Shown in pieces: positions 12,789 to 62,775 of a stretch of 64,000 bases of DNA; position 1 is the stretch's first letter; every line of letters starts with the position of its first letter. The notes beneath the pieces are model-generated. The model was not told where the DNA came from. It did no database searches and was given only the letters and a program-made list of their open reading frames with translations. Source of the DNA: Exiguobacterium sibiricum 7-3 (lineage in GTDB: Bacteria > Bacillota > Bacilli > Exiguobacteriales > Exiguobacteriaceae); contig NZ_KK211190.1 in assembly GCF_000620865.1 (NCBI RefSeq), positions 943,971 through 1,007,970 of the forward strand, in the 5' to 3' direction. Both the position numbers and the translations under genes were made by a program.

Positions 12789-12890
12789 CGTTAGTTCGTT
12801 TGGAAAGCACCCAAATGACTACAACCGCACAGACCGGGTTTTAAAGCATCCGCTGCCCGTGATGGCGAGTCTGAGTTCCTAAGAGGAGGT
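12789..12890 (+). ncRNA. Ribosomal protein L21 leader (candidate autoregulatory mRNA element)
   Basis: A roughly 100-nt untranslated leader between a strong promoter and rplU, containing short pairing segments (for example CCGC...CAGACCGG and the GCCCGTGATGGC region). Firmicute rplU genes commonly carry a structured L21-binding leader at this place. I assign it by position, length and structure-rich sequence, not by a covariance search. Confidence 0.6.
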
Positions 12891-13562: not shown

Positions 13563-13841
13563 ATGTTGAAACTTAATCTTCAGTTCTTCGCATCGAAAAA
13601 AGGGGTAGGTTCGACAAAGAACGGTCGTGACTCGCAATCGAAACGCCTTGGGGCGAAACGTGCAGACGGTCAAACTGTTTCTGCTGGTTCAATCCTCTAC
13701 CGCCAACGCGGTACGAAGATTCACCCAGGTATGAACGTCGGACGTGGTGGCGATGATACACTTTTCGCAACTGCAACTGGTGTCGTTCGTTTCGAACGTC
13801 TCGGACGCGACAAAAAACAAGTCAGCGTTTACCCAGCATAA
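13563..13841 (+). CDS. rpmA: 50S ribosomal protein bL27
   Basis: 92 aa. The N-terminus [20 protein letters not shown] contains the nine-residue extension ending in QFF, which Prp is known to cleave in Staphylococcus to expose Ala10. This extension is the Firmicute form of L27. The rest is conserved ([17 protein letters not shown]). RBS GGAGGTGG at about 13549. Confidence 0.98.
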
Positions 13842-13854
13842 GTGATCGATGAAG

Positions 13855-13895
13855 CAGACTCTAGCCACTTTCAGGGGTTAGGGTCTGTTTTTTTT
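13855..13895 (+). terminator. Terminator after rpmA
   Basis: CAGACTCTAGCC pairs with GGTTAGGGTCTG (with G-T pairs), followed by eight T. Confidence 0.85.
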
Positions 13896-13911: not shown

Positions 13912-14397
13912 ATGAAGGATGAGCAGGTACTGGATCTTTTGAAGTCACTTCGTCACGAATGGTTGAATCGATTATAACTTGTTCGTTCATATAGCGCGAT
14001 GGGTGACGAGGCGGCTGTTGAATCGATTTGTTCAATGTATCGGGAACAAGCGTCACGAGAAGGACGACTTTCCCTGATCGGACTACCGAAAACGGCACTC
14101 GCACTGCAACGAGCAGATTGGACAGGCCTAACTGTCGAATATGATGTAATCGAAACACCAAAGCAGATCGAGGATTCACGCGTAGCGTCTATTCTTGAAG
14201 CTGCGCTTGACATGATAGAAGTGGGGAATGGAGAAGTATCCGTGACCTTCCATGAGGGCGTGACCATCGAGATCTATCGGGATCTACTAGATATGTCGCG
14301 CCTTAAAGATCTAGTGACGCCGATGGAGATCGAGTCACAGACAGAGTATGAGTGTGTGATTGAAATCGAAAGTCTTCCTGCAGAGGAAGAAAAGTAA
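13912..14397 (+). pseudogene. Spo0B-like phosphotransferase gene interrupted by an in-frame TAA
   Basis: Read through as one frame, this would encode about 161 residues. ATG 13912 follows AGGAGGG (about 13896). Codons 13-21 read LRHEWLNRL, matching the phosphoacceptor His box of Spo0B (in Bacillus SRHDWMNKLQ), with His at codon 15. Codon 22 is TAA (13975-13977), where Spo0B has Gln; CAA to TAA is a single transition. The frame then continues intact for 139 codons: LVRSYSAMGDEAAVESI and on to IEIESLPAEEE. Position between rpmA and obgE is that of spo0B in Bacillus. A restart at ATG 13999 would give 132 aa without the His box and has no SD. A real nonsense mutation or a sequencing error are both possible. 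Confidence 0.8.
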
Positions 14398-14412: not shown

Positions 14413-15708
14413 ATGTTTGTCGATCAGGTAAATATTTATGTAAAAGCAGGAGATGGAGGACGCGGGCAAGTGGCGTTCCGTCGCGAGAAATACGTTCCAG
14501 ACGGCGGTCCAGCCGGAGGAGATGGTGGGCATGGTGCTCACGTCGTTCTCGAAGTGGATGAAGGACTCCGGACGTTGATGGACTTCCGTTACAAACGTCA
14601 CTTTAAAGCAGTTCAAGGTGAAAACGGAATGTCGAAAGGGATGCACGGACGTAAAGCCGAGCACCTCGTCGTCAAAGTCCCACCCGGCACTGTCGTCTAT
14701 GATGATGATACGGATGCCGTCATCGCTGACCTTGTCCATCACGGACAACAGGCAATCGTTGCTAAAGGTGGACGCGGCGGACGTGGGAACTCACGTTTCG
14801 CAACACCGGCAAACCCAGCTCCGGAACACGCAGAGAATGGTGAACCGGGTGAAGAGAAGTATTTGAAACTTGAATTGAAAATGCTCGCAGATGTCGGACT
14901 CGTCGGTTTCCCGAGTGTCGGGAAATCAACGATGCTGTCGATCGTCTCAGCAGCTCGCCCGAAAATCGGGGCATACCACTTCACGACGATTACACCGAAC
15001 ATCGGTGTCGTTGAAACGGAAGACAGCCGCAGCTTCGTCATGGCCGATTTACCGGGTCTGATTGAAGGGGCAAGCGAAGGTGTTGGTCTTGGTCACCAGT
15101 TCCTCCGTCACGTCGAGCGGACGAAAGTCATCGTTCATGTCATCGATATGAGTGGCATGGAAGGACGCGATCCGATTGAAGATTACAATATCATCAATAA
15201 AGAGCTTGCGGACTATAACCTTCGTTTGACAGAGCGACCACAAGTCGTTGTCGCAAACAAAATGGATATGCCAGATGCGGAAGCGAATCTCGAAGCGTTC
15301 AAAGAAGCGTTCCCGGGTCTTGAAGTGTTTGCCATCTCGGCAGCTACACGTCAAGGATTACGTGACCTCTTATTCCGCATTGCTGATCTTGTTGATGCGA
15401 CGCCAGAATTCGGTCTCGAAGAACTTGAAGAAAAAACAGCGACACCACGTGTCGTTTACGGATATGAAGCACCGGAAGCCGGATTTACGGTTTCGAAAGA
15501 TGAAGATGATTGCTTCGTCATCAAAGGACCACGGATCGAGAAGCTATTCACGATGACGAACTTCATGCGTGAAGAGTCAATCAAACGTTTTGCCCGGACG
15601 TTGCGTCAAATGGGTGTCGACGAAGAGCTTCGTAAGATGGGTGCGATTGACGGTGACGTCGTTCGAATCCGCGACTTCGAATTCGAATTCATCGAGTCTT
15701 CGTTCTAA
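14413..15708 (+). CDS. obgE: Obg/CgtA GTPase ObgE
   Basis: Essential ribosome-associated GTPase, 431 aa. N-terminal glycine-rich Obg fold ([20 protein letters not shown]), G domain with GFPSVGKST (G1, about residue 166), DLPG (G3, about 211) and NKMD (G4, about 281), and a C-terminal OCT domain from about residue 345. In Bacillus the Obg gene follows spo0B in one operon, as here. RBS AGGAGGG at about 14400. Confidence 0.97.
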
Positions 15709-34627: not shown

Positions 34628-34879
34628 CAGAACGAATTAAGAACCGATGACGAAGAAGAGTAATTTAGATCTCGGCTGCATAGAGAGTCGCCCCTAGGCT
34701 GAAAGGGTGATCAGACGAACTAGATGAAAGACCCTTTTGAGGTATTTTCCTGAAACGAACAGAGTAGGGGAAATCGTAGGCAGGCGTTAACTGCACCGAG
34801 TGGCTGAGAATTTTCAGCAACCAGGGTGGTACCACGGGATCTTCAAGTTCTCGTCCCTTTGCGGACGAGGACTTTTTTT
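34628..34879 (+). promoter_or_regulatory. T-box leader of hisS-aspS with Asp (GAC) specifier
   Basis: The T-box AGGGTGGTACCACG lies at 34823-34836, followed by a terminator stem (CTCGTCC / GGACGAG) and T run to 34879. In the specifier loop the sequence GATGAAAGACCCTTTTGAGG aligns with the glyQS leader pattern GAAA-codon-N-TTNTTGAG, making GAC at 34730-34732 the specifier, an aspartate codon. No CAC or CAT is in that loop. Uncharged tRNA-Asp should therefore stabilise the antiterminator and allow transcription. Confidence 0.9.
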
Positions 34880-40182: not shown

Positions 40183-40393
40183 AACAGATGGGGTTCCTGA
40201 GATGTACGAGAGCCGCCTTTTATCTTTGAGCCACTCTTTTTTGATAGGGAGTTTGACGTTCCAACTAGTAGTACATGCCTCGTAACACAGCAGGAGGACG
40301 TACGAATAGGAATCGGATAAGACACCCACCTGCGCAGCAGGTTCAAAAATAAGGTATCGACACGGCACTTCGGGTCCCATCGTTTCTTTTTTT
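40183..40393 (+). ncRNA. ssrS: Probable 6S RNA
   Basis: No convincing gene lies in this 355-base gap, but a single rod-like RNA fold can be drawn. Closing stem AAC-GATGGG (40183-40192) with CCCATCGTT (40376-40384). Next GCCG with CGGC, then CCTT..TTTGAGCC with GGTTCAAA..AAGG, a large central bubble, and an apical arm with GTAC/GTAC and CCTC/GAGG. The 3' side of the bubble contains a small hairpin ACCTGC-GCA-GCAGGT, as described for 6S RNAs. A T run (40387-40393) ends it. Length about 210 nt. In Bacillus a 6S gene (bsrA) lies in the same aspS-tcdA-rarA neighbourhood, from memory. Not confirmed by a covariance model. Confidence 0.7.
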
Positions 40394-46065: not shown

Positions 46066-46614
46066 TTAATGACCAACTTCACGTACGATCCGTAACGGTG
46101 GACCGGAAAAGTCTTCATACGCTTCGTCCATGTTTTTAGTGTACAGTTCGATAACATTTTGTTCCGTATCTTTAAAATAAGCGGAGTATTCCTTGTCATT
46201 TGATGTCTGCTGCTCATCCCATTCACGAATCTTGACATCAATTGCAGCAGTACGTAACAGGTCAAGTGCTTCATTAAACTTGTTTTTCTCGATATAAAAG
46301 GCGCAATGAACGTGGACTCCGCCCTCATCATACAGGCTGTCCCACTTTGTGACAGGAAGGTGTTTGACTGTCCGTTCTTCCATTGTAAAGTCACGTTTGA
46401 GCCAAAGGCCGAGACGGGTATTTCCCCCAATGTACAACCATGTCGCCCAGACCCCGTCCTGCTTTTCCTGTTCATGACTCGGCTCCGCATCTTCCGGCGC
46501 CCACTGTTCGACAATCGGGATACCGAGCGTTCCATTCCAGAAGGCAACAGCCCGTTCCATATCTTCAACCTCCAGTACTAATTCACACAATCCGGCAATT
46601 GGCAGTCGTCCCAT
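46066..46614 (-). CDS. Glyoxalase/bleomycin-resistance (VOC) superfamily protein
   Basis: 182 aa. One VOC fold: CELVLEVEDMERAVAFWNGTLGIP at the start (positions about 46586-46515 on the minus strand), and late AYFKDTEQNVIELYTKN, where the Glu is a likely metal ligand. Substrate cannot be read from sequence; the family includes dioxygenases, glyoxalase I and resistance proteins. GGAGGA seven bases before ATG on the minus strand. It interrupts the otherwise Bacillus-like yrrB-recD2 order. Confidence 0.8.
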   Translation of the reverse strand: MGRLPIAGLCELVLEVEDMERAVAFWNGTLGIPIVEQWAPEDAEPSHEQEKQDGVWATWLYIGGNTRLGLWLKRDFTMEERTVKHLPVTKWDSLYDEGGVHVHCAFYIEKNKFNEALDLLRTAAIDVKIREWDEQQTSNDKEYSAYFKDTEQNVIELYTKNMDEAYEDFSGPPLRIVREVGH

Positions 46615-46683
46615 GAATTATTCCTCCATTCAATTATTGATTCAAGAAATGTTTCCCTCATTTAAAATCCCTTAAACGAATGC

Positions 46684-48989: not shown

Positions 48990-49241
48990 GATGAATGGAC
49001 GCAAAACGTTGATGGAAGATAAGTAAGTCGCAATCTTCATGACCAGAGAGAGATGGATCTGCTGTAACCATCTTCGTGACGATTCGATTGAAGCTCCTTC
49101 CGGAGTCGAGTGCAAACACTTGCGGGTAATCTCCGTTAACGGATTTTTCGAGGTAAAGAGAGCACATGTCTTTACGAACGAGGGTGGTACCACGAAAGCG
49201 ATGCTTTCGTCCCTTTTCAGGGATGAATGTATCGTTTTTTT
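48990..49241 (+). promoter_or_regulatory. T-box leader of alaS with Ala (GCT) specifier
   Basis: T-box AGGGTGGTACCACG at 49181-49194. Terminator stem CGATGCTTTCGTCCCT / AGGGATGAATGTATCG (49199-49234) with seven T. The specifier loop reads GATTGAAGCTCCTTCCGGAG, so GAA is followed by GCT at 49093-49095, an alanine codon. This agrees with the downstream gene. Confidence 0.92.
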
Positions 49242-49277
49242 GCGTTCAGGATAAATTAATCAATGGGGGTATTTTCG

Positions 49278-51920
49278 ATGAAACCATTAAAACCGTTGAC
49301 GGGTGCACAAATCCGTCAGATGTATCTCGACTTTTTCCAATCTAAAGGACATGCAATCGAACCAAGCGCATCCCTTGTTCCGATTGAAGATCCAACATTA
49401 CTGTGGATCAACTCGGGTGTCGCTACGTTAAAAAAATATTTTGATGGACGAGTCATTCCGCAAAATCCACGGATTGTCAACGCGCAGAAATCCATCCGGA
49501 CGAACGATATCGAAAACGTCGGGAAGACAGCACGTCACCATACGTTCTTTGAAATGCTTGGAAACTTTTCTGTTGGCGATTATTTCCGCGAAGATGCGAT
49601 CAAATGGGGCTGGGAACTATTGACGAGTGACGAGTGGTATGGACTTGATCCGGACCGCCTTTCCGTGACGATTCACCCGGAAGACGATGCAGCACGTCAA
49701 ATCTGGCTCGAACTTGGTGTGCCGGCTGAACGCATTATTCCACTGGAAGATAACTTCTGGGAAATTGGTGAGGGTCCTTCAGGTCCGAACACAGAGATTT
49801 TCTTCGACCGCGGACCGGCTTTCGGCGACGATCCGAACGATTCCGAATTGTATCCGGGTGGCGAGAACGAACGGTATCTCGAAATCTGGAACATCGTGTT
49901 CAGTCAGTATAACCATGATGGACACGGCAATTACACGGAGTTACCGCGTAAAAACATCGATACCGGGATGGGTCTTGAGCGGATGGCGAGCGTCATGCAA
50001 GATGTGCCGACGAACTTTGACACGGACCTGTTCATGCCGATCATCCATAAGACAGAAGAACTCAGCGGTAAACTTTACCGCGAAGATTCAAAACTGGATG
50101 TTGCGTTCAAAGTCATTGCTGACCACATCCGGACAGTTGCCTTTGCAATCGGAGACGGTGCGCTGCCTTCGAACGAAGGACGCGGTTATGTCTTACGCCG
50201 CCTGCTTCGTCGTGCTGTTCGTTACGCAAAAATGCTCGGGATCGAACGTCCGTTCATGTACGAACTTGTGGATACAGTCGGTAGCGTCATGGTCGATTTC
50301 TACCCACAAGTTCCAGAAAAAGCAGATTTCATCAAACGTGTCATCAAAAACGAGGAAGAACGATTCCACGAGACGTTACATGACGGTCTTGCTATCTTAA
50401 ACACTGTGGCACAAGCAGCGAAGAGTAACGGCGAACATGTCATCAGTGGAGAAGATGCCTTCCGTTTGTATGATACGTATGGTTTCCCGCTCGAATTGAC
50501 GGTTGAATATGCAGAAGATCATCAGATGTCTGTTGATGAAGAAGGATTTAAACGGGCAATGGATGAACAACGGAAACGTGCTCGTGCTGCCCGCGAAGAC
50601 GGCGGTTCGATGCAACAACAGTCGGAAGTGCTCGCGACATTGACTGTTCCAAGCCAGTTCATTGGTTATACGGACCTTGAGACGGATGCTAAAATTATTG
50701 CTTTGTTGCATGATGGAGAACGAGTGACGGAAGTCGCTGCTGGAGAAGAAGCACAATTGTTGCTTGATATCACACCATTTTATGCAGAAAGCGGTGGAGA
50801 AGTGGCGGACACTGGAACCATTACAGGTCCGGATTTCGTCCTTGATGTCAAAGATGTTCAAAAAGCACCGAATGGTCAAAATCTGCATACAGTTATTGTT
50901 CGGACGGGGATTGCTTTGGCAGATGCGACAGTTCATGCGACGGTCGAAGCGTCATCTCGTCAAGCAATCACAAAGAACCATACCGCAACCCACCTGTTGC
51001 ATAAAGCATTAAAAGATACACTTGGGACACACGTCAACCAAGCCGGATCACTTGTTTCTGCAGATCGTCTCCGGTTTGACTTCTCACACTTCGGAGCAGT
51101 CACGGCGGAAGAATTAACAACCATCGAACAGGATGTAAACCAAGCAATTTGGGCATCACTTGCAGTCGAGATTGAAGAGATGAACATTGCTGATGCGAAA
51201 GCAAAAGGTGCAATGGCCCTGTTTGGTGAAAAATACGGTGAGACGGTTCGTGTCGTTTCGGCTGGAACATATTCGATCGAATTATGTGGCGGAATCCACG
51301 TCCGCAATACGGCAGAAATCGGTCTGTTCAAGATTGTTTCCGAATCAGGAATCGGAGCTGGAACACGACGGATTGAAGCCGTCACGGGCGCTGGAGCATA
51401 CCATGTGATGAACGGTCACCTGCAGACACTTGAGCAGGCAGCACGTGTCCTGAAAACGAAGACGACTGAGGTGCCGGGACGGATCGAAGCACTTCAAGTC
51501 CAACTTCGTGAAACAGAACGTGCGCACGAATCATTACAAGCAAAACTTGCAAACATTGAAGCAGCATCATTGAAAGAGGATGTCGAGCAAATCAATGGAG
51601 TGCAAGTCCTTGCGAAGCAAGTCGATGTCTCGGATATGGATGCACTTCGCGGTATGATGGATGAACTGAAGTCAAGTCTCGGCTCGGCGATCATCGTCCT
51701 CGGTAGTGCGCAGGGAGATAAAGTCAACCTCGTTGCAAGCGTCTCAAAAGACTTGATCGATCAAGGGTACCATGCAGGTAAATTGATTAAAGAAGTAGCG
51801 ACGCGTTGCGGCGGCGGTGGCGGCGGTCGTCCGGACATGGCACAGGCTGGCGGAAAAGATCCTGCAAAATTAAACGAAGCTCTTGCGTTTACTTCACATT
51901 ACGTGCAATCACTGGCATAA
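49278..51920 (+). CDS. alaS: Alanyl-tRNA synthetase
   Basis: Class II synthetase with editing domain, 880 aa. Motif 1 region [27 protein letters not shown] and [15 protein letters not shown] in the catalytic half. Editing-site zinc ligands [12 protein letters not shown] (near residue 570) and [14 protein letters not shown]-terminal C-Ala domain ends [21 protein letters not shown] 49278 preferred: GGGGGT at 49265 is about eight bases upstream, while ATG 49263 precedes it. Confidence 0.96.

Positions 51921-61481: not shown

Positions 61482-62775
<1,294 letters not shown>

Follow-up and report, generated by a model that had tools for sequence, protein, structure and literature searches.

We examined a 64-kb window (the whole stretch of DNA analysed, positions 943971-1007970 of the 2.91-Mb contig C7) of a 3.08-Mb Exiguobacterium genome assembled in 7 contigs (G000), and found in it a spo0B gene interrupted by an in-frame TAA at codon 22. 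In Bacillus subtilis, the phosphotransferase Spo0B hands the phosphate of Spo0F~P on to Spo0A. Our best explanation, with a probability of roughly 0.8, is that spo0B was lost in one lineage by a nonsense substitution, so that no Spo0B would be made and the relay would be cut between Spo0F and Spo0A. The loss is most likely real, recent and of strain level.

The frame at 13912-14397 begins with an ATG preceded by AGGAGG, translates as MKDEQVLDLLKSLRHEWLNRL*LVRSYSAM...EEEK and ends with a TAA at 14395-14397. As a sequence-only reading of this DNA had described, LRHEWLNRL occupies codons 13-21, the stop is codon 22 and 139 open codons follow; that reading had also predicted glutamine at codon 22 in relatives, and this was what we observed. 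Spo0B genes were present in 19 of 19 genomes of the genus, and in all 18 others the frame was open, with CAA (17 genomes) or CAG (one genome) at codon 22. The gene was likewise found in 38 of 38 family genomes, with an internal stop in G000 only. In a sample of the class, 104 of 299 genomes were matched, and among the matches listed the stop was again confined to G000. The whole frame aligned without gaps to spo0B of three close relatives, G014, G013 and G005 (97.3-98.6% DNA identity), whose identity to the window was 93.2% (main 64-kb block), 93.1% (mean) and 90.9% (mean), respectively; G000 apparently belongs to a species of its own. This gap-free alignment and the presence of the gene throughout the family indicate that 13912-14397 is not a chance open reading frame (ORF).

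The identity of the gene as spo0B, proposed by the sequence-only reading, is supported by position, His box, profile and the predicted fold of intact relatives. First, the gene order is rplU-ysxB-rpmA-spo0B-obgE (names from sequence and position); the frame preceding spo0B is one that we take to be rpmA, for ribosomal protein L27, and an L21 leader just upstream (12813-12882) supports the name rplU. PMC6136694 recognizes spo0B as the gene between those for L27 and ObgE, with L21 nearby, and 13912-14397 occupies this place, L21 and L27 being named from sequence. Second, an alignment of 21 proteins, three of them from beyond the family, showed no variation at R14, H15, N19 and Q22. Third, a profile (A1) built from 11 intact relatives and the C-terminal part of the window frame aligned over positions 5-103 to positions 20-122 of B. 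subtilis Spo0B chain 1ixm (1.5e-7) and also matched 1f51_A (1.3e-7), artificial alphaRep proteins outscoring the Spo0B structures in the same search. In this alignment His15 fell on position 30 of 1ixm, presumably the phosphorylated histidine. Fourth, three intact relatives scored 29.1-31.3 bits with SPOB_a, above the Pfam cut-off of 28.1 bits; G000, G014, G013 and G005 each had a single SPOB_a match, which was spo0B, with no second one in G000, and SPOB_ab (PF14682) was reported neither for the window frame nor for the three intact relatives at E up to 1. Finally, the predicted fold of an intact relative contained a two-helix hairpin and a kinase-like C-terminal domain, helix 1 of the intact E. 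sibiricum model spanning residues 3-30. A first structure model, based on 12 similar rows, was poor (predicted local distance difference test, pLDDT, 62.7) and was discarded. The continuous reading frame of a Spo0B gene was not found, codon 22 being TAA; judged from the DNA, the gene is spo0B but its product is not expected.

A nonsense substitution in one lineage would have changed a conserved glutamine codon to TAA. Translation would end after 21 residues, before helix 1 of the dimerising hairpin is complete, and no Spo0B is therefore expected to be made.

The sequence-only reading had offered three explanations of the stop, namely a recent loss, a translated-through stop and a sequencing error. 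The first is best supported, the second found no support in 464 kb, and the third, though unlikely, deserves to be taken seriously. The TAA could stem from faulty base calling or assembly, or be a variant confined to one culture, in a species whose spo0B is intact: it concerns one base in one assembly, and no other private substitution (a G000 base differing where the three relatives agree with each other) lies near it. On the other hand, C>T is an ordinary mutational change and the commonest of the 12 private types in the window (364/1518), and a survey of gene integrity spoke against an error-rich assembly. In this survey, which covered 464 kb (the window and two 200-kb stretches), G014 ORFs of at least 120 codons were sought in G000. 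Among 412 ORFs, 390 were intact, 8 were not found and 14 were flagged, 3 being cut by stretch ends and 11 containing a stop; none of the 14 was divided between two frames, with the proviso that a frameshift very close to the end of a gene (its final few percent) might escape notice. The match covered 97% or more of the ORF in 388 of the 390 intact cases and 95% in the other two; the reverse comparison, of 408 ORFs, gave 391 intact, 6 not found and 11 flagged.

Besides spo0B, no stop was judged to lie within a gene body among the genes compared. The other stops fell at codons 3-5 (three ORFs besides 46066-46629), at codons 18-49 where a start further downstream has the better ribosome-binding site (four) or near the ORF end (two). 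This verdict is a judgement from start sites, with six of the ten non-spo0B cases displayed individually; for B 124692, an ORF whose stop is codon 5, later Met codons were listed but no later start with a ribosome-binding site. Two candidate gene breaks in the window, both flagged against G014 and G013, were rejected: at 46066-46629 (minus strand) the stop is at codon 4, counted from the upstream start in relatives, and codon 6 offers a start whose ribosome-binding site is better, the gene probably being intact, and 49039-49281 overlaps the T-box leader before alaS. Comparison with the more distant G005 flagged further window ORFs; the two long stop-bearing ones, which were those inspected individually, had the stop at residue 12 in one G005 ORF and residue 13 in the other, likely in upstream extensions, and both genes were intact against G014. 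With no frame splits, no second gene-body break and near-full-length matches, the assembly does not look prone to errors, although a single wrong base is conceivable.

The same survey bears on read-through or recoding of the stop, by which some full-length Spo0B would be made. Downstream of the stop the frame is preserved in full and is little changed relative to the relatives, as such a mechanism would predict, but a young mutation equally predicts this lack of decay. Moreover, the relatives lack a stop at codon 22 and no other gene-body stop was judged in the 464 kb, and we consider read-through most improbable. Pervasive decay or a recoded TAA was rejected, the other stops not being judged gene breaks. 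No tRNA gene was found in the 64-kb window, to which the search for suppressor tRNAs was confined.

A C-terminal Spo0B fragment started from the ATG at codon 30, also suggested by the sequence-only reading, was not borne out. This ATG lies in frame, 24 bases past the first base of the stop, and re-initiation giving a separate or dominant-negative protein is conceivable. However, no Shine-Dalgarno match of at least 4 of 6 precedes it (scanned on the G014 copy, which has the same bases there), and codon 30 is Met in only 6 of 18 relatives, the other 12 having isoleucine. According to the structure model, the product would be without the histidine and would retain hardly any of helix 1. Such a fragment appears very unlikely.

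Loss of spo0B by a nonsense substitution remains our preferred reading, and the substitution is likely recent, because nothing else in spo0B appears to have decayed. Over the 63,491 positions compared, private substitutions of G000 numbered 1518, or 23.9 per kb; between 12850 and 14420 the sole one was 13975, the stop, where about 38 would be expected at the average rate, a count that overstates recency. Indeed, rplU and rpmA showed zero differences in any comparison made, and synonymous divergence (dS) between G014 and G005 was 0.10 for spo0B and 0.29 for obgE. The low divergence of rplU-ysxB-rpmA-spo0B is common to the relatives, so that constraint and recent exchange would account for it equally well.

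The relay partners were open in G000. The Spo0F gene lies between pyrG and fbaA, and among solved structures its product matched Spo0F best (1pey, 7e-24), and Spo0A matched TIGR02875 at 267.6 bits (best solved match Spo0A, 1dz3, 6.8e-39); HisKA matches numbered 21 in both G000 and G014. All 38 family genomes had a Spo0F-like match, the best of each without a stop, and 37 had Spo0A above the cut-off. SpoIVA was matched in none of the 38, B. subtilis being among the two controls that gave a match. E. sibiricum is reported to have spo0A, spo0B and a Spo0F homologue and to lack spoIIA and spoIIG (PMC2615787), and E. sibiricum and Exiguobacterium sp. AT1b are listed as Spo0A-positive non-spore-formers (PMC3533761). 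Without Spo0B, Spo0A would receive no phosphate via Spo0F, and only direct action of a kinase could then phosphorylate it; the loss may be tolerated because these bacteria do not sporulate.

In the family genome lacking Spo0A above the cut-off (G002), spo0A carries an insertion of about 1.29 kb that splits the gene; the same 4 bases, which belong to the uninterrupted G001 copy, stand at each end. Of the two ORFs in the insertion, one matches an integrase core (rve, 2.6e-26) and the other a helix-turn-helix domain, and we take the insertion to resemble IS3-type elements. The ORF over the Spo0A C-terminal part (L200 3113-3664) is still open, as is spo0B of G002. Two relay breaks in 38 genomes are at most suggestive of relaxed selection. 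It is also imaginable, if improbable, that a pathway change is under way, either because Spo0A is now fed by kinases as in clostridia or because a sporulation-free relay is burdensome, with independent hits in spo0B and in the spo0A of a second Exiguobacterium.

Several points weigh against a strain-level loss of spo0B. The stop is known from a single assembly of a single isolate of the species. The 1.57-kb block around it is also slow in other relatives, so that the lack of further decay says less about a young age than the raw number of substitutions would suggest. The window frame falls below the SPOB_a cut-off (24.6 bits with the stop replaced by X, 26 bits when the genome was searched), and the family match that the sequence-only reading had proposed to look for in the read-through translation is therefore borderline. 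Both the absence of Spo0B and the lost phosphorylation of Spo0A are what we infer from the DNA, and non-sporulation of the window strain is deduced from one marker, SpoIVA, and from papers on other Exiguobacterium.

The coordinates are collected in the table. In the region before spo0B, the folding energy of a stretch of 75 bases was -24.4 kcal/mol (z -2.7), although a pattern scan found no plus-strand terminator there. The T run and the spo0B ribosome-binding site are also present in 18 same-genus relatives.

Table. Features of the window and the insertion in spo0A of G002.
Feature	Position	Strand	Basis or remark
spo0B, interrupted (pseudogene in G000)	13912..14397	+	frame translation, relatives' alignment, family survey
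His box RHEWLNRL, codons 14-21	13951..13974	+	
In-frame TAA, codon 22	13975..13977	+	glutamine codon in 18/18 same-genus relatives
Open rest of spo0B frame, 139 codons and stop	13978..14397	+	predicted end of helix 1, followed by helix 2 and the kinase-like C-terminal domain (model of intact E. sibiricum protein)
Internal ATG, codon 30, candidate restart	13999..14001	+	no ribosome-binding site found; codon not conserved
rpmA (presumed; ribosomal protein L27), neighbourhood marker	13563..13841	+	name from sequence and position
obgE, neighbourhood marker	14413..15708	+	open frame; profile-confirmed
Terminator-like hairpin and T run, between rpmA and spo0B	13851..13895	+	directly 5' of spo0B ribosome-binding site
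T-box leader	34638-34861	+	
6S RNA match	40191-40380	+	
T-box leader before alaS	49000-49217	+	accounts for short stop-bearing ORF
T-box leader	62537-62741	-	
spo0A insertion in G002	L200 1894-3183 (G002:C1, about 523393-524682)		integrase-core ORF and helix-turn-helix ORF

The spo0B break is otherwise an ordinary strain-level pseudogene, and its value is that of a natural test strain. E. sibiricum is reported to keep Spo0F, Spo0B and Spo0A without sporulation genes (PMC2615787), and Spo0A is reported without sporulation genes in Exiguobacterium (PMC3533761); G000 may thus offer a naturally occurring loss of function in a relay kept without sporulation. With two natural loss candidates (spo0B and spo0A) beside intact relatives, the role of the relay could be tested by phenotypes and transcriptomes. 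The relay genes of E. sibiricum are noted in PMC2615787, and our literature search on spo0B and Exiguobacterium (including spo0B with obg and nonsense) found no report of the G000 break in the text portions it covered.

Compared with the clostridial pathways in which Spo0A is phosphorylated directly, as presented in PMC6136694 and PMC3533761, G000 is alike in having Spo0A without a working Spo0B; in contrast, it keeps Spo0F and a spo0B with a single stop, and gave no evidence of a direct Spo0A kinase. B. subtilis Spo0B (PDB 1IXM, 1F51) shares the His box, the conserved glutamine after it and the predicted helical hairpin with kinase-like C-terminal domain, as well as the place between the L27 and ObgE genes given in PMC6136694, whereas the gene described here has 161 codons against 192 residues in chain 1ixm, is 22-24% identical over the structural alignment and is interrupted by TAA. 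The spo0B of E. sibiricum 255-15 is the same gene in the same place, with 97.3% DNA identity, but is intact.
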